A stretch of 64,000 bases of DNA, from contig NZ_JAAAKV010000005.1 of assembly GCF_009905725.1 (NCBI RefSeq), positions 1-64,000 of the forward strand, in the 5' to 3' direction. This stretch comes from Emticicia sp. CRIBPO (GTDB lineage: Bacteria; Bacteroidota; Bacteroidia; Cytophagales; Spirosomataceae). Positions within the stretch are counted from its first letter, which is position 1, and each line of letters opens with the position of its first letter. A program made the translations under genes and the position numbers. A model generated the notes under the pieces. The model was not told the DNA's origin. It saw nothing but the letters and a program-made list of their open reading frames with translations, and ran no database searches. Shown one piece after another: positions 15,118 through 34,265 of this stretch.

Positions 15118-18100
15118 ATGCGTTTATTTAATATTAATCAATCATTCGTGAAAGCTTCCGATTTTCTTAAAATCTACACAGAGGATAGTTTCGTTCTGAA
15201 TATTCAAAAGAAACTCGGTGACCACAAAATACTCCAGATAGAAGGCCTGACCGGCAGTCTGGACGCTGTGATGGTGGCTGCGACATTTCTGAATAAACCT
15301 CAGACACTTCTGGCTGTCCTTTCCGATAAAGAAGACGCATCTTATTTTCTTAATGATCTCCAGCACCTGATGGGGGAGGAGAGTATCGCCTATTTTCCGG
15401 CTTCATTCAAAAAACCCTATGAATACCAGGAAATTGAGAACGCTAACGTATTGCTGAGATCCGAATTGCTTAATAAACTCAATCAGCAGGAGTCTCCTTT
15501 AATTATCGTTACCTATCCGGAAGCCCTCGCAGAAAAAGTGATCAACCGGAAAAGCCTGGTTGCCAATACCTTAAAGCTGACGAAAGGGGATACCCTGGAC
15601 CTTAATTTTTTGACAGAACTGCTTGTCTCTTATGATTTCGAACGCACCGACTTTGTTTATGAGCCTGGTCAGTTTGCCATCAGAGGGGGCATCGTCGATA
15701 TTTTTTCCTATGCATCCGAACATCCCTGCCGCATAGAGCTTTGGGGAGATGAAATAGACAATATCCGTTTATTTGACCCTGAAAACCAGCTTTCAAATAA
15801 ATCAGTAGGCTCTGTTACGGTTATTCCCGATGTGCAGCATAAGCTCACTCACGAAGAAACAGAACCTATTTTTGCGTTCCTGCCTGCCGAAACCACCGTA
15901 TGGGTAAAAGACCTGAACTTCACACTTGACAGGATAGAAGAAAATTTTGGAAAAGTAATCCAGGCCCACGATGCCCTGGTTCAGAAAAGCGGCGGAATTA
16001 AGGTCATTCTTGAACCCAGCCATTCTTTCTCAGACCGCAAAGAGAGCCTTTCTCTCGTAGAAAACCATTCCATTGTGGAATTCGGCCATCGTTTCTTTTT
16101 CCGCAAAGCAGAAAGGGTCTCTTATCTTTCCAAATCCCAGCCTTCATTCAATAAGGATTTTAACCTCCTGATTGATGACATCGCCGAAAGAAAAACCAAA
16201 GGATTCAGCCCTTTTATCTGTTCGGATTCATTGAAGCAGCTGAACCGCCTGGAGACCATTTTCACAGAAATCAAGCCCGGGCTTCATTTTACACCCCTTT
16301 CGGTAAGCTTTAGAGAAGGTTTTATAGACCATCAGAACAAAATTCTGGCCTATACCGATCACCAGATTTTTGAACGTTTGCACCGTTACAACGTAAAAGA
16401 CAAATTTTCCAAATCAAAAGCACTGACTATCAAGGAATTAAAGTCTCTGCATACCGGCGATTTTGTTACCCACATAGACTATGGTATCGGACGTTTTGCG
16501 GGGATGGAAACCATCGATGTGGGGGGTAAAAAACAGGAAGCTATCCGCCTGATTTACAAAGACAATGACCTGCTGTTCGTTAATATACACAGTTTACATA
16601 AAATAGCGAAATATTCCGGCAAAGAAGGTGTTCCACCTTCCATGAGTAAGCTGGGTTCCGGCGACTGGGAAAATAAAAAGTCGAAAGTCAAAAGGCAGGT
16701 CAAAGACATTGCCAAAGAACTTATTGCACTTTATGCCAAAAGGAGGGAGGCTCCCGGTTTTGCATTCTCCCAGGACGGTTTTATGCAGGCAGAGCTGGAG
16801 TCTTCGTTTATGTACGAAGACACCCCGGACCAGGCTTCTGCCATAGCCAAGGTCAAAGAGGATATGGAAAAATCTCACCCAATGGACAGATTGGTTTGTG
16901 GTGACGTAGGTTTTGGGAAAACAGAAGTGGCTATCAGGGCCGCCTTCAAAGCCGTCAACGACTCCAAACAGGTGGCCGTTTTGGTTCCGACTACCATCCT
17001 CGCCATGCAACACCACAAGACCTTCTCAGAAAGGTTGGCTAAAATGCCTGTCAATGTGGATTATATTAACCGGTTCAAAAGCAGCTCTGACACCACTGCC
17101 ACCCTTAAGAAGCTTAAAGAAGGAAAAGTGGATATTATCATTGGCACACATAGACTGCTCAATAAAACCATCGAATTTAAAAACCTCGGCCTTCTGGTCA
17201 TCGATGAGGAGCAAAAATTCGGGGTGAAGTCGAAAGACCGGATCAAAGAACTAAAGCTTAACGTCGATGTGCTGACCCTGACCGCCACCCCGATCCCGAG
17301 AACCCTGCATTTCTCTCTTATGGGAGCCCGGGATTTGTCGGTCATAGCCACGCCACCGCCTAACAGACAGCCTGTTACGACCGAAGTCGAGGTTTTTAAA
17401 GAAGAAATCATACGGGATGCCATAAGTTATGAACTGAGAAGGGGAGGGCAAGTCTTTTTTGTTCATAACCGGGTCAATGACATTGATTCTATTGCCAACA
17501 TTATTTACAGACTCGTTCCTGAAGCCCGGATTGGTGTCGCACATGGTCAGATGGAAGGTGATAAGCTGGAAAAAGTGATGATGAGGTTTATAGAAGGTGA
17601 TCTTAACGTCCTGATCTCTACCAACATCATCGAATCGGGCCTAGATATTCCAAATGCCAATACCATTATTATCAATCAGGCCCATATGTTCGGTATGTCT
17701 GACCTGCACCAGATGAGAGGCAGGGTAGGGCGTTCCAATAAAAAGGCTTTCTGTTACTTGCTAACTCCGCCTTTGTCAGGCCTTACAAAAGATGCCAGGA
17801 AGAGGCTTCAAACGCTTGAAGAGTTTTCAGACCTCGGAGATGGTTTTAAGGTCGCGATGCGTGACCTGGATATTCGGGGAGCCGGAAACCTCCTTGGATC
17901 CGAGCAAAGTGGCTTTATCAATGACCTGGGCTATGAAACATACCATAAAATCCTGGACGAGGCCGTTACAGAACTTAAAGAGACCGAATTCAGAAGTCTT
18001 TTTGAGGAAGAGCTTTCTGCCAAGAAATTCATCATTGAAGACTGCCAGGTAGAAACCGATCAGCAGATCCTGATTCCGGATACTTACATTACCAATATTT

Positions 18101-19857: not shown

Positions 19858-19891
19858 AATAGCCTCTGTATTTCAATATGCAGAGGCTATT
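19858..19891. terminator. hairpin terminator between gldJ and comF
   Basis: 11-base arms AATAGCCTCTG (19858-19868) and CAGAGGCTATT (19881-19891) flank a 12-base loop. It serves gldJ on the plus strand. Its right arm lies inside the last codons of the convergent comF. Confidence 0.75.
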
Positions 19892-20565
19892 GTTATAATA
19901 TAGATTTCTGAACATCCGCTTTCCAGCAATGCTGCTCCTGCCACTTCAAGCGTTGCTCCGGTGGTCAGAACGTCGTCTACAAGGGCGATCCTCTTTCCTT
20001 CTACCTTGGATCTGTCATTGACTGTAAAAACGCCCTCAATGTTCTTAAAACGCCCGAAACGGCTTGATCTGCGGGTCTGCGACTCCGTGAAAGTATTCCG
20101 TTTCAGAATTTCTGTATCAAGCGGTATCTTCAGGGCCTCTGACAGTCCTTTGGCAAGATGATTAGCCTGGTTGTAGCCCCTTATTCTTTCCTTCTCCTTG
20201 TGTAAAGGAACGCCCGTTATAAGGTCAATCCTGTGCTCCAGTTCAAGTGCTTTCAACTCGGTTCCATACCAAAAACCCATATATTCGGCTAATTCAGGCT
20301 TGTTTTTGTACTTTAATGCATGAAGAAGCTTTTGAACTTTACCTTTTTTGGTAAACTTTAAAAATGAATACGTATTTTTAACATTTAATTTGCCCCAAAA
20401 CTTTCTCTCTATCAAATCTGTTGGTAAAATGTGAGAATCCGTTTTGGGAAGGGTGTAGAGGCAATTAACACATAGATGTTTTTCAGAAGCATTCAGCACT
20501 GTTTCACATGAAACACATGTTCTGGGATATATGATGTTAAGCAGGTGGTGGAAAAGTTTTTTCAT
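19873..20565 (-). CDS. comF: ComF-family phosphoribosyltransferase-like protein
   Basis: 230 residues. An N-terminal zinc ribbon (CVSCETVLNASEKHLCVNC, four Cys) is followed by a type I PRTase fold, with KEKERIRGYNQANHLAKGLS and the PRPP loop RIALVDDVLTTGATL. ComF supports DNA uptake in competent bacteria, possibly working with PriA; many carriers are not known to be competent. It is divergent from the 119-residue gene with only an 18-base gap. Its ribbon codons contain a 16-bp palindrome one base off parS. Confidence 0.92.
   Translation of the reverse strand: MKKLFHHLLNIIYPRTCVSCETVLNASEKHLCVNCLYTLPKTDSHILPTDLIERKFWGKLNVKNTYSFLKFTKKGKVQKLLHALKYKNKPELAEYMGFWYGTELKALELEHRIDLITGVPLHKEKERIRGYNQANHLAKGLSEALKIPLDTEILKRNTFTESQTRRSSRFGRFKNIEGVFTVNDRSKVEGKRIALVDDVLTTGATLEVAGAALLESGCSEIYIITIASAY
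20500..20515. other. near-perfect parS-like palindrome inside comF
   Basis: TGTTTCACATGAAACA differs from the canonical parS 16-mer by one base (G to A at position 9). It lies about 4.5 kb from the two perfect sites. It is also constrained as Cys-Glu-Thr codons of the comF zinc ribbon, so it could be coincidental. Confidence 0.4.
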
Positions 20566-24700: not shown

Positions 24701-25045
24701 ACAGAGCTGGGCAAAAAGATAGGAGGGCAGCTTAATGATCTGAAGAAACAGATGGATGAGAGTGAGAACGACCTTGTCAATAAAAGAATAACACCAACAT
24801 TGATCAAGCGTCAAAAGGATATACAGACCAGGTTGCTTGAAGCTGAAAAAGCCATTAAAGAACAAGAGTTAGACCCTAAGCGTAAGTCAGCGACGGCTAC
24901 TACCTTTAACCGTACGAGCCCACCTGATCTGGAGAAATTTACAAAGGAGAAGCAAAAACAATTAGAATTGATACGTACTACTCCTCCAAACTACACACCT
25001 TTTTATAAGAAACAGACTGATAATTATTTCAAAAGAATTAAATAA
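21728..25045 (+). CDS. DUF4175-family membrane protein with long coiled coil
   Basis: 1105 residues. Two TM helices lie near residues 28-80 and one near 155-175. A beta-rich region follows to about 500, and then a very long Lys/Glu/Gln-rich coiled coil (about 515-800) with a later one around 955-1060, separated by Met/Gly/Pro-rich linkers (MQQMMSMPSSGKGNKKG). DUF4175 proteins are large envelope proteins of Bacteroidetes and some Proteobacteria without a proven function. The coil implies scaffolding or bridging across the periplasm or cytoplasm. It lies directly before the two parS sites. Confidence 0.88.
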   Translation: MKKDTGLSQLFSKIEEYKKKYYTNLLFKGLLIGFALILSVFIFINFLEFFGRFGSVFRATLLFSFLAVALYTFFYLIIRPVFYLFKIGEPLTDQKAAEQIGKFFPEVKDKLLNTLQLMSSISSSESQLLEASINQKTSDLKLIRFADAVNLNENKKYLKFIIPPILGILLISAISPSFFTKSTERIVYFKKDFAEDAPFRFKITNKDLQAVKNEDFNLHLKLIGDALPEDVFLVYNGRKFKMDSKDARNYDFTFSKVQDEIEFHFLASGFKSNSFDLDMVSRPNLLSFNVKLKYPAYLNKSSETYDNVGNLIVPEGTLVEWDFKTADADSLNLVFDDVHKARVSKSILFGDFSFQKKMVNSTNYQINLKNSFSSNNENISYYINVIPDKYPQIQLEQLKDTALYSYIVLGGNITDDYGLSDFKLFYRKKKEGVGENADAYASIDIPFNKNSLSQTFIYQMGLEKFQLDKNDKLEYYLQLWDNDGVNGRKTTKTSVLTFSMPSNKEFDKEVEKQVNQAEDKLEDVLKKSKELKKSVENLDKTLKSKKEIDFQEKKQVNDLLEKKEELLKELKELQQQFQNLQEKQNRFNKQSPELQQKMDQLQNLLNELMKNEDTKVYEELKKLLEEQQNEKAIEKLDKLKNSDRNLDKDIDRTLKLFKNLQLKQKVEETAKELEKLAEKQENLAEKTESEKDPGKSEELQKEQEKISKEFDEKKEKLKEIEKMSKELKKDVDTKKESQQSVSENQKNAEKQLDNKDNKESSKSQKKAAKTMKAMAAEMAQSMQSAEMKQLDIDIDALRDILENLVKLSFEQEKLMKEFRSISLVDPRFVKYSQEQLKLSDDAKVIEDSLYSLAKRVLQIESFITKEVTDMKNNMDESIQFIRDRKLNQASAKQQFSMTSMNNLALMLSDTFKQMQQMMSMPSSGKGNKKGNTPMPGMEGMGEKQGELNKRMEGLGKSGESGRQLSEELANLANEQAKLRKQIQKMQEELNGTELGKKIGGQLNDLKKQMDESENDLVNKRITPTLIKRQKDIQTRLLEAEKAIKEQELDPKRKSATATTFNRTSPPDLEKFTKEKQKQLELIRTTPPNYTPFYKKQTDNYFKRIK

Positions 25046-25050
25046 AAATA

Positions 25051-25066
25051 TGTTTCACGTGAAACA
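25051..25066. promoter_or_regulatory. parS centromere site 1
   Basis: Perfect palindrome TGTTTCACGTGAAACA, the canonical ParB/Spo0J-binding parS sequence. It lies 5 bases after the DUF4175 stop, and a second identical copy begins 65 bases further on. parS sites cluster near chromosomal origins. No parA or parB gene is in the window. Confidence 0.92.
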
Positions 25067-25115
25067 CTACCCTCATTTCTTAGTGAAATATGAGGATGGT
25101 TAAGAATCAAAACAA

Positions 25116-25131
25116 TGTTTCACGTGAAACA
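25116..25131. promoter_or_regulatory. parS centromere site 2
   Basis: A second perfect TGTTTCACGTGAAACA. The ATG at 25115 just before it opens a frame encoding MFHVKH, which would extend mnmG by 11 residues. This extension is an artefact of the parS sequence and not the likely start. A bulged hairpin (CCTCAT…ATGAGG) lies between the two parS copies. Confidence 0.92.
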
Positions 25132-25147
25132 TAATAGGATAGAAAGC

Positions 25148-27010
25148 ATGTTTGAAGAATACGATGTTATTGTTGTTGGAGCCGGTCATGCCGGATGTGA
25201 AGCTGCTCATGCTGCTGCAAGTATGGGATCAAAGACCTTATTGGTCACTATGAACCTACAAAACATTGCTCAGATGTCTTGCAACCCTGCCATGGGTGGT
25301 GTAGCCAAAGGGCAAATAGTCAGAGAAATCGATGCTATAGGAGGGATGTCTGGTATCATCAGTGACCACACTATGTTACAGTTCAGAATGCTGAACAGAT
25401 CAAAAGGCCCGGCCATGTGGTCACCCAGATGTCAAAGCGACAGGATGGAATTCGCATTACTATGGAGAGACACCCTGGAGAAAAATCTGAACGTAGACTT
25501 CTGGCAGGAAATGGCAGTAGGTTTATTGGTAAAAGATAACCGGGTAACAGGTATTAAAACAGCCCTTGGTCTGGAGATCAAAGCCAAATCAGTAGTGCTG
25601 ACCAATGGTACATTTTTGAATGGTGTGATTCATATTGGTGAAAAACATTATGGTGGTGGAAGAACTGGGGAGTCAGCAGCCTACGGAATAACTGAGCAAC
25701 TGGTTCAATTAGGATTTGAATCAGGAAGGATGAAGACAGGCACTCCACCAAGAGTAGACAGCAGAAGTATTAATTACGCCGCCATGGAAGAACAGAAAGG
25801 AGATGAAGATCCTGAGAAATTCTCCTATACCGACACTCCTCATTTAAAAGAACAACACAGCTGCTGGATATCATATACCAATGAAAAAGTCCATGATGAA
25901 TTGCGAAAAGGATTCGACAGATCACCTATGTTCAATGGACGTATCCAGGGTCTTGGTCCAAGATACTGCCCATCTGTAGAAGACAAGATCAACAGGTTTG
26001 CTGAAAAGAACAGCCATCAGATCTTCCTTGAACCTGAAGGTAGGTCAACCGTCGAGATGTACGTGAATGGATTCTCTACTTCCCTGCCGGAAGATATTCA
26101 ATACAATGCTATCAGAAAAATACCTGGCTTTGAGAATGTGAAAATGTTCCGTCCCGGCTACGCAATAGAATATGACTATTTCCCACCTACCCAATTGAAA
26201 CTAAGTTTAGAGACTCAGCTTATAGACAATCTATACTTTGCAGGTCAGATCAATGGCACCACGGGATATGAGGAAGCAGCGGCCCAAGGTTTGATGGCAG
26301 GTATTAATGCTCACCTGAAAGTGCATGAACAAGATCAGTTTATCCTGAAAAGGGATGAAGCCTATATTGCCGTACTTATCGATGACCTTGTCAACAAGGG
26401 TACGGAAGAGCCTTACAGAATGTTTACATCTAGAGCAGAGTTCAGAACATTACTCAGGCAAGACAACGCAGATATAAGACTAAGTGAAAAGGCCAATAAA
26501 ATTAATCTTGCTGATGATGCGAGAGTACAAAGGGTAAAACAGAAAGTAGCAGGTTCGGACGAAATATATACTGAACTGCAGAAAATAAAAGTTGATCCTT
26601 CAGATATCAACGGATTTCTGGAGTCAAAAAATTCAGCTACCATCAGAGAACGGGCAACCTTGTTTAATCTTCTTAAAAGACCTGAAATCAATATCCAGGA
26701 CCTAATAGGCGTCAATAAAAATTTAGAAACTTTAACAGCCAAGTACGACCGGGAAATAACAGAACAGGCAGAGATCAGCGTTAAGTATGAAAGATATATT
26801 GAGAAAGAGTTAGCTATGGCGGAGAAAGTCAACAAACTGGAAAACCTGAATATAAACGCTGAGTTTGATTACGAAAAACTCACTTCTATTTCTATTGAGG
26901 CCAGACAGAAATTAAAGAAAATAAAACCGCAGACTTTAGGACAAGCTTCACGCATTAGTGGGGTTTCTCCGGCTGATATATCAGTCTTAATGATACACCT
27001 AGGCAGATAA
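25148..27010 (+). CDS. mnmG: tRNA uridine-5-carboxymethylaminomethyl modification enzyme, FAD subunit
   Basis: 620 residues from the ATG at 25148, chosen because family members begin [14 protein letters not shown] and the longer start lies in parS. With MnmE it installs the cmnm5 group on wobble U34 of certain tRNAs, using FAD, NADH, methylene-THF and glycine. Motifs: [14 protein letters not shown] (FAD), [76 protein letters not shown]. mnmG (gidA) is classically near oriC with parS, as here. mnmE is not in the window; MnmD for the later step is at 61.9 kb. Confidence 0.97.
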
Positions 27011-27012
27011 TA

Positions 27013-28614
27013 ATGAAAACAAATTACCTGGTAATTCTAAGCTCACTCTTGTTGAGTTCCTGTGCACAGTTTGTACCACCTACAGGGGGAATAAAAGACG
27101 AGATACCTCCCAAACTCCTGAAAACACAACCTCTTAACAAAACGATCAATTTCAAGGGGAGTACCGTATCACTTGAATTTGATGAAGTGATTGACGTCAG
27201 TTCCTTAAGACAGGACCTTCTGGTTATCCCTGAACAACCGGGTGCGTACACCGTCAAACAAACTTCTAAAGGAGTAAAGCTTGTCTTTGATCAACCGTTC
27301 AAAGACAGCACTACCTATACCCTTAATTTCCGGAATGGTGTAAAAGACATCAATGAAAGAAATCCGGCTCAGAATCTTAAGCTGGTATTCAGTACCGGTG
27401 ACAAAATAGACTCATTGAGTGTATCAGGAAAAATACAGGATCTCTGGGCAAAAACAGAAGAACTTGATGTCACAGTCGGGCTCTACAATCTAACAGACAC
27501 CATTCCAATCCTGAAGCGGAAACCTGACTACTTTACAAAAACAGATTCTTCAGGAAACTATCTTTTTGAAAATATTAAGAATAACAAGTATCGCCTGATT
27601 GCCATCAATGACAAAAACCAGAACCTGCTTTTCGATCAGAAAAATGATAAGATCGGCTTCTTAAGCGATACCCTTAATCTTACAGAAAACAAGAAGCTTG
27701 AGACCATTGAGATATATAAATCTGACCTCATTAAGAATAAGCTCAAAAGAAGTATTCCCAGGGAAAACACCTTTACGGTTCAGATGGAAAGGAACGTAAA
27801 AGAACTGAATGTTCTGTATAACGACCCAAAAGATACAATAACTTATAATGTTAAAACAAATGAATTGACTTTCTTTAACCACCCGGTACTGAAAGATACC
27901 TTATTTGTAAAGATCAGAACAGTAGATTCACTTCTAAGGGTAGATGAATTCCAGCAGAAAGTGTACTTCACCAAACCGGTTGCTTCAACTTCAACCAGGA
28001 AAAGAAGGCCTGCAGATTTACCTATCATATCCAGCATCAAAAGCGGTGAAGCAGTAACGCTTCCCTTCGAATATGTACTCAGATTTGAAACACCGATTGT
28101 AAGGATAGATACACAGAAAATCAGGCTGTATAATGATACTACCATAGGCCCCAGGCCCGCATTATCCTGGATAGATAAGAATAACACCCAGCTTAAAATA
28201 AGCGTCCCTGGCAAAGCTAAAGAAGAAGTTTCGTTGAGAATACAGTCGAATGCATTTGAAAACTACAGGGGCGATACCAGTGCCAATTACTCACAAAAGA
28301 ACAAGATTCTCAAAAAGGATGATATGGGACTTATTGAAGGTTCCACCAAAATCAAAGATGGTACTAAAATTGCCCAGTTAATAAAAAACGATACCCGGGA
28401 GATCATTCGGGAAATAAGTTTTACCAATACCTTCAGATTTGATAATGTGGTACCTGATATTTACGACATCAGGATAATCATTGATGTGAACAAAAATGGT
28501 ATCTGGGATACCGGTGACTTTATCAACAATATACAACCTGAAAAGATACTCTTGAGTAAGGAGCCTATTAAATTGAAAGCCAATTTTGAAATAAGGGACG
28601 TACTCATAGAATAA
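27013..28614 (+). CDS. lipoprotein with N-terminal SbsA/Big_5-like Ig domain
   Basis: 533 residues with lipoprotein signal SSLLLSSCAQ (Cys17), followed by the recurrent PPTGGIKDEIPPKLLKTQP. An Ig-like domain follows (residues about 30-130, DSTTYTLNFRNGVKDINERN). The remainder looks like beta-sandwich repeats, including VNKNGIWDTGDF, a calcium-loop-like sequence. Family function is unknown; it is probably on the outer-membrane surface or periplasmic face. It begins 2 bases after mnmG, so it is co-transcribed, and it ends at the edge of the candidate oriC. Confidence 0.82.
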   Translation: MKTNYLVILSSLLLSSCAQFVPPTGGIKDEIPPKLLKTQPLNKTINFKGSTVSLEFDEVIDVSSLRQDLLVIPEQPGAYTVKQTSKGVKLVFDQPFKDSTTYTLNFRNGVKDINERNPAQNLKLVFSTGDKIDSLSVSGKIQDLWAKTEELDVTVGLYNLTDTIPILKRKPDYFTKTDSSGNYLFENIKNNKYRLIAINDKNQNLLFDQKNDKIGFLSDTLNLTENKKLETIEIYKSDLIKNKLKRSIPRENTFTVQMERNVKELNVLYNDPKDTITYNVKTNELTFFNHPVLKDTLFVKIRTVDSLLRVDEFQQKVYFTKPVASTSTRKRRPADLPIISSIKSGEAVTLPFEYVLRFETPIVRIDTQKIRLYNDTTIGPRPALSWIDKNNTQLKISVPGKAKEEVSLRIQSNAFENYRGDTSANYSQKNKILKKDDMGLIEGSTKIKDGTKIAQLIKNDTREIIREISFTNTFRFDNVVPDIYDIRIIIDVNKNGIWDTGDFINNIQPEKILLSKEPIKLKANFEIRDVLIE

Positions 28615-29009
28615 TGTTGTGGAAAAACCTGTTAATAAGGGTGAATTAATGCGAATAACTCTGAAAATGTGTGGGGATAAGTAATGGTAAGTCATACAAA
28701 ACAGGGAGGATCAGAAGAAAATGAGGACAACCTCTGACTTATAAAATTTTCTCAGCACGTTATACACCCGGGGAAAAGTCCTTAAATATATTAACATCAA
28801 CAACAGCAGGTTTCCCACAAAAAATATAAATAGCTGATAAAGAATATTCTAAATGTTTATTATAATTTTAGATATCCACAGCTGGAATATATTAATCAAC
28901 AAAGTATAAAAAGTAAAAGGTAGAAAGAACTCTTATCAACAAATCCACAGACATAATAATATAATAACAATAAGAATTAAATATATATATCTTTATTATT
29001 ATTAAGGTC
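28615..29009. other. candidate chromosomal replication origin (oriC)
   Basis: A 395-base non-coding gap. DnaA-box-like 9-mers with one mismatch to TTATCCACA or TTATACACA occur at 28618-28626 (-, TTTTCCACA), 28672-28680 (-, TTATCCCCA), 28760-28768 (+, TTATACACC), 28872-28880 (+, ATATCCACA) and 28933-28941 (+, TTATCAACA). Two-mismatch copies lie at 28811 and 28941. The right end (28950-29003) is almost pure A/T and suits a DNA-unwinding element. Two perfect parS sites and mnmG lie within 4 kb, and strand composition changes here. dnaA is not adjacent, as is usual in many Bacteroidetes. No promoter or RNA gene explains the box cluster better. Confidence 0.72.
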
Positions 29010-30803
29010 ATGCTTAAAACAATAATCATTTTCTTCCTGACGGCGGCAACAATAATGGGCCAGGACGTTGATTTGGCGAACGCCTATTTTAAACAAGGCG
29101 AGTACGACAAAGCAAATGAGCTTTATAAAAAAATAAGCAAGGATAAAGACCAGGCCAGAATTATACACAACAACTATCTTCTATCGCTTCAGAAGGTGAA
29201 AGATTTTGAAGAAGCTGATAAATTTATCAAGCGTCAGATCAAGGCAAACGAGAATATTATATCGTATAAAGCTGACTACGCCCAGTTTCTGGAGTATTCC
29301 GGGAAACCTGAGCTGGCCAGAAAAGAATTTGACATACTGATCGATAATGCCTCAAAAGTGGATGCTTATGTGTATGAACTGCAGAATTACTTTTACAGAG
29401 TCAATAAAATCGACCTGGCCATCAAACTTCTTCTGACTTCGAGAGAGCGTGGCAAAGATCCTTACAGACACGATGTGCAGCTGGCCCGGGCTTATCTGTA
29501 TGTCGGGCAGAAAGAAAAAATGCTGGAGGAAGTACTTGGATTCGGACAGAGAAATCAGAACCCTTCTTATGTTCAGGCCACTATTCAGGACAATATCAAG
29601 GAAGAAGCGGAGATTGAAATGCTGGAGAAAATACTATACTCTAAAATCCAGGCTAACCCGAATGAAACCTTTTATTCTGAGATACTGATATGGCACCTGG
29701 TACAGAAGCATGAATTTGCCAGGGCATTTCTCCAAACCAAAGCCATTGATAAAAGGCTGAAACTGGAAGGTATGAAAGTGTTCGAATTGGCTGCCCTGGC
29801 CTTTCAAAACGGTGATTTCAGGAATGCCTCCAAAATGTACCAATATGTGATGGAAGAATATCCTTCGGGAGATTTTTATCCTATTGCCAGAAGATTGTAT
29901 ATCCAGAGCAAGGAAGAACTGGTTAAAAATACCTACCCGGTAAGTCTGCCGGATATCAAGGAGCTGATCGTGGAATATGAGGGTCTGATCAAGGATCTCG
30001 GAAGATCCCCCAAGACCATCGAAGCCCTCAGAAACCTGGCTTTGCTGCATGCATTCTATTTAAATGATCATAATAAGGCGATTGAAATATTGCAATCGGC
30101 TATCCAGATTTCAGCGAATAACCCGAAGTTCAGGGATCAGTGCAAGCTCGACATGGGTGATATCTACATATTGAAAGATGAACCTTGGGAATCAACATTG
30201 CTCTATATGCAGGTGGAGAAAAACCAGAAAGAAGATAATCTGGGAGAAGTGGCTAAATTGAAAAACGCGAGGTTACAGTATTACACAGGGCAGTTTGAGC
30301 TCTCTAAAGATATTCTCGATATCCTTAAAAAAGCGACTACGAGAGAGATTGCCAATGATGCCATGCAGTTGAGTTTGCTGATTCAGGACAACATAGGACT
30401 GGACACTTCGGAAACAGCCATGAAGGAGTTTGCCAAGGTCGATCTGCTCATATTTCAGAACAAACATTACGAAGCGATAACCGCTCTGGAATCTCTTTTC
30501 CAGACGTATAAATCCCATAGCCTGGCCGATGAAATACTTTGGCTAAGGGCAAATACTTACCTGAAAATCAATGAAGTAGATAAGGCAATCCTTGACCTGA
30601 ATACCATTATTAATGATTATAAATACGATATTCTTTCAGACGATGCGATGTTTACCCTGGCTAAAACCTTTGAAGAAAAGAAGGGGGATAAAGTCCGGGC
30701 TATGGAATATTATAAACAGATTCTGAAAGATTATCCGGGCAGTATTTACGGGGCACAAGCCAGGATTAAGTTCAGAGAATTGAGGGGGGATTTTGTTAAC
30801 TAA
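29010..30803 (+). CDS. tetratricopeptide-repeat protein
   Basis: 597 residues with a short Sec signal (FFLTAATIMGQD). TPR-like repeats run throughout, for example AYFKQGEYDKANELYKKISK, RDQCKLDMGDIYILKDEP and GDKVRAMEYYKQILKDYPGS. The C-terminal repeats resemble the outer-membrane-lipoprotein/BamD type (YPGSIYGAQARIKFRELRG). Probably a periplasmic scaffold of unknown partner. It starts at the right boundary of the candidate oriC, so its promoter must lie in the AT-rich tract. Confidence 0.82.
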   Translation: MLKTIIIFFLTAATIMGQDVDLANAYFKQGEYDKANELYKKISKDKDQARIIHNNYLLSLQKVKDFEEADKFIKRQIKANENIISYKADYAQFLEYSGKPELARKEFDILIDNASKVDAYVYELQNYFYRVNKIDLAIKLLLTSRERGKDPYRHDVQLARAYLYVGQKEKMLEEVLGFGQRNQNPSYVQATIQDNIKEEAEIEMLEKILYSKIQANPNETFYSEILIWHLVQKHEFARAFLQTKAIDKRLKLEGMKVFELAALAFQNGDFRNASKMYQYVMEEYPSGDFYPIARRLYIQSKEELVKNTYPVSLPDIKELIVEYEGLIKDLGRSPKTIEALRNLALLHAFYLNDHNKAIEILQSAIQISANNPKFRDQCKLDMGDIYILKDEPWESTLLYMQVEKNQKEDNLGEVAKLKNARLQYYTGQFELSKDILDILKKATTREIANDAMQLSLLIQDNIGLDTSETAMKEFAKVDLLIFQNKHYEAITALESLFQTYKSHSLADEILWLRANTYLKINEVDKAILDLNTIINDYKYDILSDDAMFTLAKTFEEKKGDKVRAMEYYKQILKDYPGSIYGAQARIKFRELRGDFVN

Positions 30804-30907
30804 CTGATTACTAAATGTTTTATACGTAAGAAATATTATTCACAAATAAAATCGTATAAAATATTACTCCCCGGCCCAACGTTCTCTATGAGCATCAAAA
30901 GATAGAA

Positions 30908-32059
30908 ATGATAAAGAAACTCTTCTTCTCAACACTCTTATTAAGTTTATCAACAATTGTATCATCTGCCCAGCAGAATGACATTATTGTGTATGGCAAG
31001 AACTATTTCGGAAATACGGTAAATGAGAGTGAAATCTGCAAAATGCTGGGTTTTACTTCGAGGCCTGAAGCCAGCAGGGCTGTTGAAAACATCGTCAGGA
31101 GATCCGGGCTGAAACAGAACTTCTATGTGATGGAATGTCCGAGCATTGACAACTGTTTTGCAGCTACCAGGAACGGCGAAAGGCTGATTGTTTATGATCC
31201 GGGTTTCATGAGAAGGATCAACGACATTACCCAGACAGACTGGGCGGCACTGAGCATACTCGCTCATGAAATCGGGCACCACCTGCAGGGGCATACCATC
31301 AAACAGGGGGGAAGCGACCATGAGAAAGAACTGGAGGCTGATGAGTTCTCCGGATTTGTCATGTACCAGATGGGAGCCACTTTAAAGCAGGCTCAGTCGG
31401 CGATTTTCAAGCTGACCAGCGATTATCCTACCAGCACCCATCCGGTGCGAACCAGACGCCTTAAATCGATAGAAAAGGGCTATAACAACGCGATGGAGCT
31501 GTATCCGAATGTCAGAAATACAATGGGGACTAAAGAGCCGGAACGCCAGGTTTCGGAGCCCGTCGCGAGTAACAGGGAAGGGGAACTGATCATCGGGGAC
31601 ATTGTTATCAAACCCAATCATGAAACATCTGTGTATAAATTGCCTGAACCTGAAGTAGTTAAAAAGAAAACAGGTTGTATAGATGGCGATTGCTGGGAAG
31701 GCTTCGGGGTGATGATCAATTCAAAAACCAATGAAAAATTTGCCGGCGGATGGAAAAGTGGAAAAAGAGCAGGAAAAGGGACTGAGTTTTATAACGACGG
31801 ATTGAAGAAATATGAGGGAGAATACCAGAACGGGGTATTTAACGGGACAGGCACCTACTTCTTCAAAACAGGAGAAAAATATGTCGGGAAATTCAGAAAC
31901 GGCCAGATGCATGGACAAAACAGTGTTTTTCATTTCAGAAATGGCGACCGGATCGTGGTGGACTATGTCAACGGGAAAAAAGAGGGCAGGGCTAAAATCA
32001 TTTACTGGGATGGTGGTGAAGGCACGCGTTACTATAAAGATGACCGCGAACTCAACTGA
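30908..32059 (+). CDS. secreted M48-like metalloprotease fused to MORN repeats
   Basis: 383 residues with signal peptide (STIVSSAQQ). The protease half holds H120-E-I-G-H124 in LAHEIGHHLQGH and a likely third zinc ligand in KELEADEFSGFVMYQMGA, the M48 arrangement. Residues about 245-380 are MORN repeats: FAGGWKSGKRAGKGTEFYN, YEGEYQNGVFNGTGTYFF, YVGKFRNGQMHGQNSVF. MORN motifs bind lipids or act as spacers. The natural substrate is unknown; envelope-associated proteolysis is inference. A weak inverted repeat (30818-30826 with 30853-30861) lies in its 5' region, and a possible terminator follows the stop. Confidence 0.83.
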   Translation: MIKKLFFSTLLLSLSTIVSSAQQNDIIVYGKNYFGNTVNESEICKMLGFTSRPEASRAVENIVRRSGLKQNFYVMECPSIDNCFAATRNGERLIVYDPGFMRRINDITQTDWAALSILAHEIGHHLQGHTIKQGGSDHEKELEADEFSGFVMYQMGATLKQAQSAIFKLTSDYPTSTHPVRTRRLKSIEKGYNNAMELYPNVRNTMGTKEPERQVSEPVASNREGELIIGDIVIKPNHETSVYKLPEPEVVKKKTGCIDGDCWEGFGVMINSKTNEKFAGGWKSGKRAGKGTEFYNDGLKKYEGEYQNGVFNGTGTYFFKTGEKYVGKFRNGQMHGQNSVFHFRNGDRIVVDYVNGKKEGRAKIIYWDGGEGTRYYKDDRELN

Positions 32060-32088
32060 AGTCAATAATAAAAGCAGATAAAAATATC

Positions 32089-32113
32089 AAGTCGGTACAT
32101 TTCATGCCGACTT
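32089..32113 (+). terminator. possible terminator after the M48-MORN gene
   Basis: AAGTCGG (32089-32095) pairs with CCGACTT (32107-32113) and is followed by TCTTTTA. The stem is short (7 bp, extendable by a G-T pair), so its strength is uncertain. Confidence 0.45.
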
Positions 32114-32118
32114 TCTTT

Positions 32119-32126
32119 TATATTTG
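32119..32126 (+). promoter_or_regulatory. accD promoter -7 element
   Basis: Exact TATATTTG, 27 bases before the chosen accD ATG. No good -33 TTG at the usual distance. It overlaps the tail of the preceding hairpin. Confidence 0.45.
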
Positions 32127-32153
32127 TCAGCTCAAAAAACGAACATAAACAAT

Positions 32154-32999
32154 ATGTCTTGGTTTAGAAGAACAGATAAAGGTATACAAACCCCTACGGA
32201 ATTAAAACGTGAAACACCTGATGGGTTGTGGTATCAGTGTCCTGAATGCAAAAATGTGATGCATACCAGGGAACACAAACAGAATGCATTTACCTGCATT
32301 CATTGCAATTATCATGATAAAATAGGATCGGAAGCATATTTTCAGCTTTTATTTGATGACGGAAGTTATACGGAGTTAGACAAAGATATGAGATCGGGTG
32401 ACCCTTTGTCGTTTGTGGACACAAAAGCGTATCCGGATCGCTTAAAGGCAACAGAAGCTAAATCAGGCTTGAAAGATGCCTGCCGTACTGCCCACGGGAA
32501 AATGAATGGTGTTAATTTGACCATCTCCTGTATGGACTTTGGCTTTATCGGAGGTTCAATGGGATCCGTTGTAGGGGAGAAGATCGCCAGGGGGATTGAC
32601 TACTCTATTAAAAAGAAAATTCCGTTTCTGATGATATCCAAATCCGGCGGAGCCAGAATGATGGAAGCAGGATTTTCATTGATGCAGATGGCAAAAACCT
32701 CAGCAAAACTTGCTTTACTTGACCAGGCCGGAATTCCTTATATTTCATTGCTTACAGATCCTACCACCGGTGGTGTTACGGCGTCTTTTGCGATGCTGGG
32801 AGACTTTAACATTGCTGAGCCTGGATCACTGATCGGCTTTGCAGGACCGAGGGTAATCAAGGAAACCATCGGTAAAGATTTACCTAAAGGATTCCAGACG
32901 GCAGAGTTTGTTCTGGAGCATGGTTTTCTGGATTTCATAGTTGACAGGAAAGATCTTAAAGATAAACTCTCGAGTCTTCTTAAAATGCTCGAAAAATAA
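32154..32999 (+). CDS. accD: acetyl-CoA carboxylase carboxyltransferase subunit beta
   Basis: 281 residues from the ATG at 32154, which gives the family start MSWFRR; the ten upstream in-frame residues are unlike it. It transfers CO2 from biotin-BCCP to acetyl-CoA to make malonyl-CoA, with AccA as partner. The N-terminal zinc ribbon shows CPECKNVM…CIHC. The crotonase fold shows [51 protein letters not shown] and [13 protein letters not shown]. It is monocistronic, bounded by a strong terminator. accA is not in the window. Confidence 0.96.
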
Positions 33000-33028
33000 A
33001 AAAAGCCCGGAGGAGATCCGGGCTTTTT
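33000..33028. terminator. accD rho-independent terminator
   Basis: 12-base arms (33000-33011 and 33017-33028, AAAAAGCCCGGA/TCCGGGCTTTTT) around a 5-base loop, one base after the accD stop codon, with T-run. The A/T symmetry lets it act in both directions. Confidence 0.92.
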
Positions 33029-33344
33029 CTTTATATAAGGGTCAGATAATGAATCGCTTTTGGCTCTGTTTTCTGAAGATAGGAGCAGAAACCTCTACAC
33101 CGGCTTAAATCATTATTCTTCAGAAATAGTTTCTAGTACCTTCAGAAAACGAAAAAAAAGAAAAGATCCGGATGGCTTTCATATTGTTGAAACGCATTTT
33201 ATCAGTTAAAAGAGATTTTTTATCCGGAAAACAGGCCGGCTAACCGGAAAATCATGATTGATTCCTGATTACTTAAAATTCAAAAATTCGTCAAAATTTA
33301 ATAATCATAACAATTAAGGAAATTCCAACGAACTTTTGAGGCGA
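33029..33344. other. non-coding gap between convergent accD and DUF4249 gene
   Basis: No ORF that I support. It contains an 11-base inverted repeat, GTTTTCTGAAG (33068-33078) and CTTCAGAAAAC (33140-33150), and GC-containing CCGG elements around 33224-33248. These may fold as RNA. I see no promoter consensus or known RNA motif. Confidence 0.4.
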
Positions 33345-34265
33345 TTATTGTTTTGGCTTTGCTTTACTTTTGTCGACGATCGTCTCAAATTTACTCACAG
33401 ACGAAACGGCAAAGAATCCCAGGGCTTTATTCTTCGAAGAAGAGTTCAATGTAAAGATATTGGTAGGGATATTGGCCGGAGGAGTTCCGAAAATACCACC
33501 ATTGGACGATTCCTGGCGAACCTGAAGCAAGAAGTAAAAAGCCTCATTGCTTATGGAACGAAGTTCAACGTTAATAGTGTCTTTGTCATAAAATATATCA
33601 TCAAAACCACCATTGATGGATTGCCTGACAGGAAGAATGAATAGAAGTCCGTCAGATTTTGAGCCCGGAGAAAACCCGGCATCATAAGCGACTGAAATTT
33701 GGGAAGGAAGGTTTCTCTCCTTGCCGTTTTTCTTTGACTTTACCCAATAAGTATCTCCTTCTCCCACAGGGTCCTTAGCGTAGAACTGGGCCAGAAATCC
33801 GTCTCTTGGTTTTCCGTTTTCCGGGGCAATCGGCAGGCGGAATTCTTCATAAGTGAGAGAATCTATTTTGGGAACGCGAGGAAGCGTTGATATAGAATAG
33901 TATTCCTCATTTTTGTATTTGATATACAGGGCATGTCTTTTACCCAGCTTCAGAAAGGACCCTTTAACCGGCGTAAAGCTATAATTTCCATCGTTGTTCT
34001 TGTCTGTAAAAGTATGAGCAGTACTGTCTTCTTCGAAAACAATGACTGTGGCACCGAGAGCAGGCTTTACTGGTGAATTATCAAAATAGGGTTGAGAGAG
34101 GGTTAATTTGATCGTTTGAACACTGTTTTCATCGGTAAGCCAGGCATCAACGACCAGTTGCTCAACACCGTCTTTGACAGACAGGTCTATTACATCTTCA
34201 CAGCTGAAGAAGAAAGGCGTTAAAGCAAGAGAAAGAATCGGAAGTATTATTTTTTTGAAGTTCAT
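33345..34265 (-). CDS. DUF4249 lipoprotein, partner of the TonB receptor
   Basis: 306 residues from the ATG at 34265. This start gives a lipoprotein signal (LALTPFFFSC, Cys22) and a 4-base gap after the receptor gene; upstream in-frame Met codons would overlap the receptor. DUF4249 features: CEDVIDLSVKDGVEQLVVDAWLTDE, then beta-rich sequence and YTPVKG-like turns. Family members are outer-membrane lipoproteins paired with CarboxypepD_reg/TonB receptors and are presumed to be surface accessory or ligand-binding proteins. The substrate is unknown. Confidence 0.85.
   Translation of the reverse strand: MNFKKIILPILSLALTPFFFSCEDVIDLSVKDGVEQLVVDAWLTDENSVQTIKLTLSQPYFDNSPVKPALGATVIVFEEDSTAHTFTDKNNDGNYSFTPVKGSFLKLGKRHALYIKYKNEEYYSISTLPRVPKIDSLTYEEFRLPIAPENGKPRDGFLAQFYAKDPVGEGDTYWVKSKKNGKERNLPSQISVAYDAGFSPGSKSDGLLFILPVRQSINGGFDDIFYDKDTINVELRSISNEAFYFLLQVRQESSNGGIFGTPPANIPTNIFTLNSSSKNKALGFFAVSSVSKFETIVDKSKAKPKQ

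Follow-up and report, generated by a model that had tools for sequence, protein, structure and literature searches.

A probable chromosomal replication origin of BUS type downstream of mnmG, away from dnaA, in a Cytophagales genome

According to the parts of the published accounts considered here, the BUS layout of bacterial origins is defined by tandem DnaA boxes that are followed, after a spacer of at most 16 bp, by no fewer than three 3'-NAN-5' triplets, and the distance between the better box and the trios peaks at 10-13 bp (PMC8287927). In Bacillus subtilis, box 6 overlaps box 7, and the 3'-GAT-5' trio corresponds to 5'-CTA-3' on the other strand (PMC8235120); the distal boxes are effective at a distance, whichever way they point (PMC6669920). 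The oriC of Helicobacter pylori carries two adjacent boxes, ts1 and ts2, beside a DnaA-trio array (PMC8235120). Within the Bacteroidota, Ori-Finder 2022 predicts an origin at mnmG in a Flavobacteriaceae genome, checked by GC skew (PMC12843772). Replicative plasmids carrying the oriC of Cytophaga hutchinsonii, which belongs to the same order as the genome studied here, have also been published (Xu et al. 2012, cited in PMC5891637 and PMC5553014), and the likeness to them is drawn from the title of that work. With these plasmids in print, the statement in the original prediction that Cytophagales origins are poorly characterised was only partly right. A literature search gave no title or abstract on the present locus among the matches listed, which does not imply its absence from print.

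The DNA analysed here (the window, 64 kb) is the first part of contig C35 (434 kb) in a 39-contig draft genome of 6.06 Mb. The closest named relatives agree with the original placement in Cytophagales. We read its intergenic gap at 28615-29009 as the candidate chromosomal oriC, in which DnaA would be loaded at a right-hand pair of boxes and would open the adjoining AT tract; judged from the sequence, this reading has a probability of about 0.93. Such an origin would very probably be of BUS type and ordinary in kind. The gap is bordered by two plus-strand ORFs, an Ig-like (Big_5) domain gene on the left (27013-28614) and a TPR-repeat gene on the right (29010-30803), so the predicted intergenic length of 395 bases was borne out. 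Its GC content is 0.286. Duplex stability was calculated from nearest-neighbour energies and compared across the whole window, and the least stable stretches of 50, 75, 100 and 395 bp start at 28953, 28953, 28905 and 28632, respectively. The extreme AT tract expected on the right was therefore found, with the lowest values of the window from 28953 on; it covers 28950-29009, adjoins the boxes and is presumed to be the DNA unwinding element. A search of 25000-33500 against Rfam found nothing that reached the gathering score.

The DnaA of this genome has the recognition helix GRDHSTVIHA, which we take to be of the common, standard kind, and an ordinary DnaA box is therefore expected in the host. 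Four 9-mers in the gap are one mismatch away from TTATCCACA, at 28618 and 28672 on the minus strand and at 28872 and 28933 on the plus strand, and seven differ from TTATNCACA by at most one base; none in the gap is a perfect box. The five one-mismatch boxes in both orientations that had been predicted were thus right as to clustering and strands, and wrong as to the count. When the gap was simulated 2000 times with a first-order Markov model, at least four one-mismatch boxes never occurred (the maximum was three, once), so even this imperfect cluster of four is above chance; its box density is also the highest of any 395-bp stretch in the window. The left end of the gap contains a minus-strand pair with a 12-bp step (28618-28638), composed of TTTTCCACA at 28618 and TTATTAACA at 28630. 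Two further minus-strand sites are the weak box TTATTCGCA (28650-28658, one mismatch to TTATNCACA) and TTATCCCCA (28672-28680), the latter recurring as an identical 9-mer on the same strand and in a similar place in two relatives (L088 and L092). On the plus strand are the weak box TTATACACC (28760-28768, one mismatch to TTATNCACA) and ATATCCACA (28872-28880, one mismatch from TTATCCACA), which is aligned with TTATCCACA or TTTTCCACA in seven of nine same-genus gaps.

The right-hand end is organised as a compact module. Two plus-strand boxes, TTATCAACA (28933-28941) and AAATCCACA (28941-28949), stand head to tail with an 8-bp step and a one-base overlap, pointing toward the TPR gene. They are followed by the three-base spacer GAC (28950-28952) and then by the triplets ATA-ATA-ATA in register (28953-28961), the complement of 3'-TAT-5' and hence similar to DnaA-trios. 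When tandem boxes were allowed at most two mismatches in one and at most four in the other, the pair fell inside the BUS definition, with one mismatch in TTATCAACA and two in AAATCCACA, three in total. The distance from the box at 28933-28941 to 28953 is 11 bp, and the window has exactly three in-register 3'-NAN-5' triplets at this place. The module therefore resembles the B. subtilis BUS in its tandem overlapping boxes, short spacer, lower-strand triplets with a central A and distal upstream boxes, as far as the sections considered describe them (PMC8287927, PMC6669920, PMC10721633, PMC8235120). Unlike that system, the module here is not beside dnaA, its boxes are imperfect, and its first triplet is 3'-TAT-5' rather than 3'-GAT-5'. 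The two adjacent boxes beside triplets also recall H. pylori, but ts1 and ts2 are described in the relevant part of that account as having no space between them and are not said to overlap (PMC8235120). The association with mnmG is shared with the Flavobacteriaceae genome, but that report gives no box-level anatomy in the parts covered (PMC12843772).

The same plan was then sought in relatives. A TPR match was present in 55 of 59 genomes, of which 50 were examined (30 + 20 loci; G021, G042, G048, G054 and G057 were left out). In 62 regions, drawn from named loci and other relatives and including the window, a gap of 258-750 bp separates the Ig-like gene from the TPR gene, and these regions together with 19 further relatives made up 81 upstream regions; L053, L091 and L094, where the left gene was not found, and L213, at a contig end, were omitted. 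Among these regions, which are not independent because some are near-identical (L006/L007, L084/L085/L087) and one genome may enter the counts of 81 or 62 twice as a named locus and under another handle, the 8-bp-step pair with at most four mismatches in total occurred in 58 of 81 (window included). The corresponding figures were 14/81 on the other strand and 5/2640 in control windows, and pairs with steps of 7 and 9 were found in 9/81 and 7/81 regions. The strict module with at least three in-register triplets was present in 19/81 regions, again including the window, compared with 1/81 on the other strand, 0/1620 simulations and 0/5280 control strands; its restriction to so few regions is a further difference from the B. 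subtilis BUS. Because this strict search is too strict for a common feature, the pair was also counted alone. Looser triplet words raised the count to 36/81 at four mismatches, a descriptive figure since the words were chosen after viewing the sequences, and CTAATA was read at the module's place in several relatives (e.g. L019, L020, L030, L092 and L097). At the other end of the gap, a minus-strand pair stepped by 12 bp, with no more than four mismatches, was found in 41/62 gaps, the window's 28618/28630 pair included, versus 19/2640 control windows of 600 bp; such pairs often lie near the left gap edge, and some lie further inside. The 2640 control windows came from only four relatives and have a lower AT content than intergenic DNA; the better-matched controls are the simulations for the strict module, and the other strand and other steps for the pair.

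A degenerate pattern of the module, searched with at most three mismatches, gave a single match in the 6.06-Mb genome, at C35:28933-28958, and the reversed pattern used as a control gave no match in the same genome. The pattern is present in 7 of 18 genomes, and six of the matches are directly upstream of the TPR gene. In G045 the sole match is at C1:1528020, about 0.2 Mb from its TPR gap and not within that gap; the origin of G045 may have moved, its skew being unclear.

The decisive evidence for the gap as oriC is the box clusters at orthologous positions. A scan with MnmG yielded 80 named loci, 52 of which were assigned to Cytophagales from their record titles and known taxonomy, and a locus was considered testable when it contained an Ig-like gene with 700 bp after it, as did 48 of the 52. 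At least four one-mismatch boxes lay directly after the Ig-like gene in 45 of these 48, versus 0 of 10 testable loci from other orders, all of them Pedobacter or Mucilaginibacter; the remaining non-Cytophagales loci have no detectable Ig-like gene and fall outside the comparison. The box count after the Ig-like gene also topped that of the rest of the locus in 45 of 48, not wholly the same 45. The exceptions among the 48 were L016, L038 and L046, and L038 scored 0 owing to a partial Ig-like match, its gap having six boxes. Two of three testable loci of unclear order also had at least four boxes at this place. Ten Sphingobacteriales loci (L052, L059, L062, L065, L066, L069, L073, L074, L079 and L081) have kept mnmG and the Ig-like gene with 0 or 1 box within about 650 bp after the latter, and the origin of these genomes is probably located elsewhere than after the Ig-like gene.

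Perfect parS sites and mnmG had been placed within 4 kb of the gap, which proved correct. By the 16-mer consensus, the only two exact parS copies in 6.06 Mb are at 25051-25066 and 25116-25131, about 3.5-3.6 kb from the gap, and mnmG is the plus-strand ORF at 25115-27010, with an alternative start at 25148. Two ParB-like genes are present in the genome, on contigs C38 and C10; in genomes with ParB, parS near the origin is usual, not universal. An exact parS appeared in one of 120 control stretches, namely the mnmG locus of G007. As counted by eye, a parS with at most one mismatch lies within about 160 bp of the start of the mnmG match in 35 of 80 named loci. It is also found beside mnmG outside the Cytophagales (e.g. 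L066, L071, L072 and L080), so the pairing of parS with mnmG is broader than this origin position. The second parS shares bases with the opening codons of mnmG as that ORF is listed. Since the MnmG matches begin at residue 1-2 for some relatives and at 11-12 for others, the real start of mnmG may be 25148, and the parS at 25116-25131 could lie inside or outside the translated part. A third parS-like site with one mismatch (20500-20515) is inside a minus-strand ORF (19873-20565).

GC skew was scored in six single-contig relatives over 20 stretches of 20 kb each, with negative values expected to the left and positive values to the right of the orthologous gap. The switch was clear in G007 (10/10 left, 9/10 right), G034 (9/11 and 9/9) and G013 (9/10 and 8/10). 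It was local in G030 (8/10 and 5/10), where the agreement holds only within about 0.5 Mb of the gap, and weak in G040 (7/11 and 6/9), and G045 (4/10 and 5/10) lent the gap no support; the outcome for the predicted skew signature was thus mixed.

This switch near the gap in several relatives also argues against the best of the alternatives, in which the gap would be a DnaA-controlled promoter region of the TPR gene and replication would begin elsewhere near parS. DnaA can serve as a transcription factor, and a five-box cluster is indeed found at the start of an nrdA-like gene near C35:93 kb. We nevertheless consider this explanation very improbable, as boxes follow the Ig-like gene even at loci without a detected TPR homologue (e.g. 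L008, L009 and L011-L015), and an overlapping pair with triplets and an AT tract would suit unwinding better than a promoter. The cluster near 93 kb (C35:93049-93314, or L202:9049-9314) consists of five DnaA-box-like 9-mers, one of them perfect, spread over the last part of one gene and the DNA directly before the nrdA-like gene (start L202:9537), a ribonucleotide reductase gene named by eye. In E. coli, nrd is under DnaA control, and the boxes here possibly reflect the same control. As an origin this cluster was set aside because the skew is positive throughout 80-104 kb, and it is probably an nrdA regulatory region. A box cluster in G007 (L133:5240-5825) was likewise rejected as an origin, being inside a coding gene. 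In G034, four boxes cluster at L172:1749-2046, immediately beyond the TPR gene and some 2 kb away from the gap of that genome.

Still less credible is an origin 10-15 kb to the left of the gap, where the skew has a local minimum (around 14-16 kb). Inside the window the cumulative G-C curve does reach its lowest point at 16473, some 12 kb to the left of the gap, but a shift of this size could be attributed to gene strand alone, and the window has its densest box cluster at 28615-29009. As had been stated, dnaA is not adjacent: the host's own dnaA is on another contig (C12:217404), and in the six relatives dnaA is 0.8-2.8 Mb from the gap. An origin beside dnaA, although a common arrangement in other phyla, can practically be dismissed here, given that no box within one mismatch occurs in the 3.2 kb around dnaA (L001) and only six in 20 kb with no two inside 450 bp, that three 20-kb stretches around this gene share one skew sign, and that dnaA of G007, G034 and G013 is well within a one-sign arm, 1.2-1.3 Mb from the gap.

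The proposed oriC in a non-dnaA context is therefore supported by synteny, the box clusters, the unique module, parS and the skew switch in most of the complete relatives sampled. What the sequences themselves show is the set of sites, the fact that these recur in relatives, a module pattern found only once in the genome, a duplex of low stability and a skew switch in several relatives. From this we infer that DnaA binds and unwinds the DNA here, that replication fires from it, that ParB acts nearby and what each box does, as follows. With the gap as oriC, DnaA would bind the scattered boxes and be loaded on the overlapping pair at 28933/28941, from which a filament would extend onto the lower strand of the triplets from 28953 on. 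The AT tract beside the TPR gene would then be opened, allowing helicase loading. By analogy with the distal boxes of B. subtilis, the left boxes at 28618, 28630 and 28672 may recruit DnaA and thereby raise its local concentration. ParB on the two nearby parS sites would contribute to the segregation of new origins.

It can tentatively be suggested, at somewhat less than even odds, that the Cytophagales origin left dnaA once for the mnmG/Ig-like neighbourhood and has been kept there throughout the order on a two-ended plan that combines a leftward 12-bp-step pair on one side with, on the other, an overlapping rightward pair and triplets. The Ig-like gene is common to Cytophagales and Sphingobacteriales, but on this reading the origin position would not be.

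The gap offers a concrete oriC candidate in a large order where dnaA is no guide to the origin, and lets the BUS layout be studied comparatively within Cytophagales. It is also an origin that possibly functions without any perfect DnaA box. The useful part is the precise location, common to most tested Cytophagales loci, together with the two-ended plan. The resulting location rule, directly after the Ig-like gene downstream of mnmG, might serve genome rotation, replichore assignment and the construction of shuttle plasmids in these bacteria.
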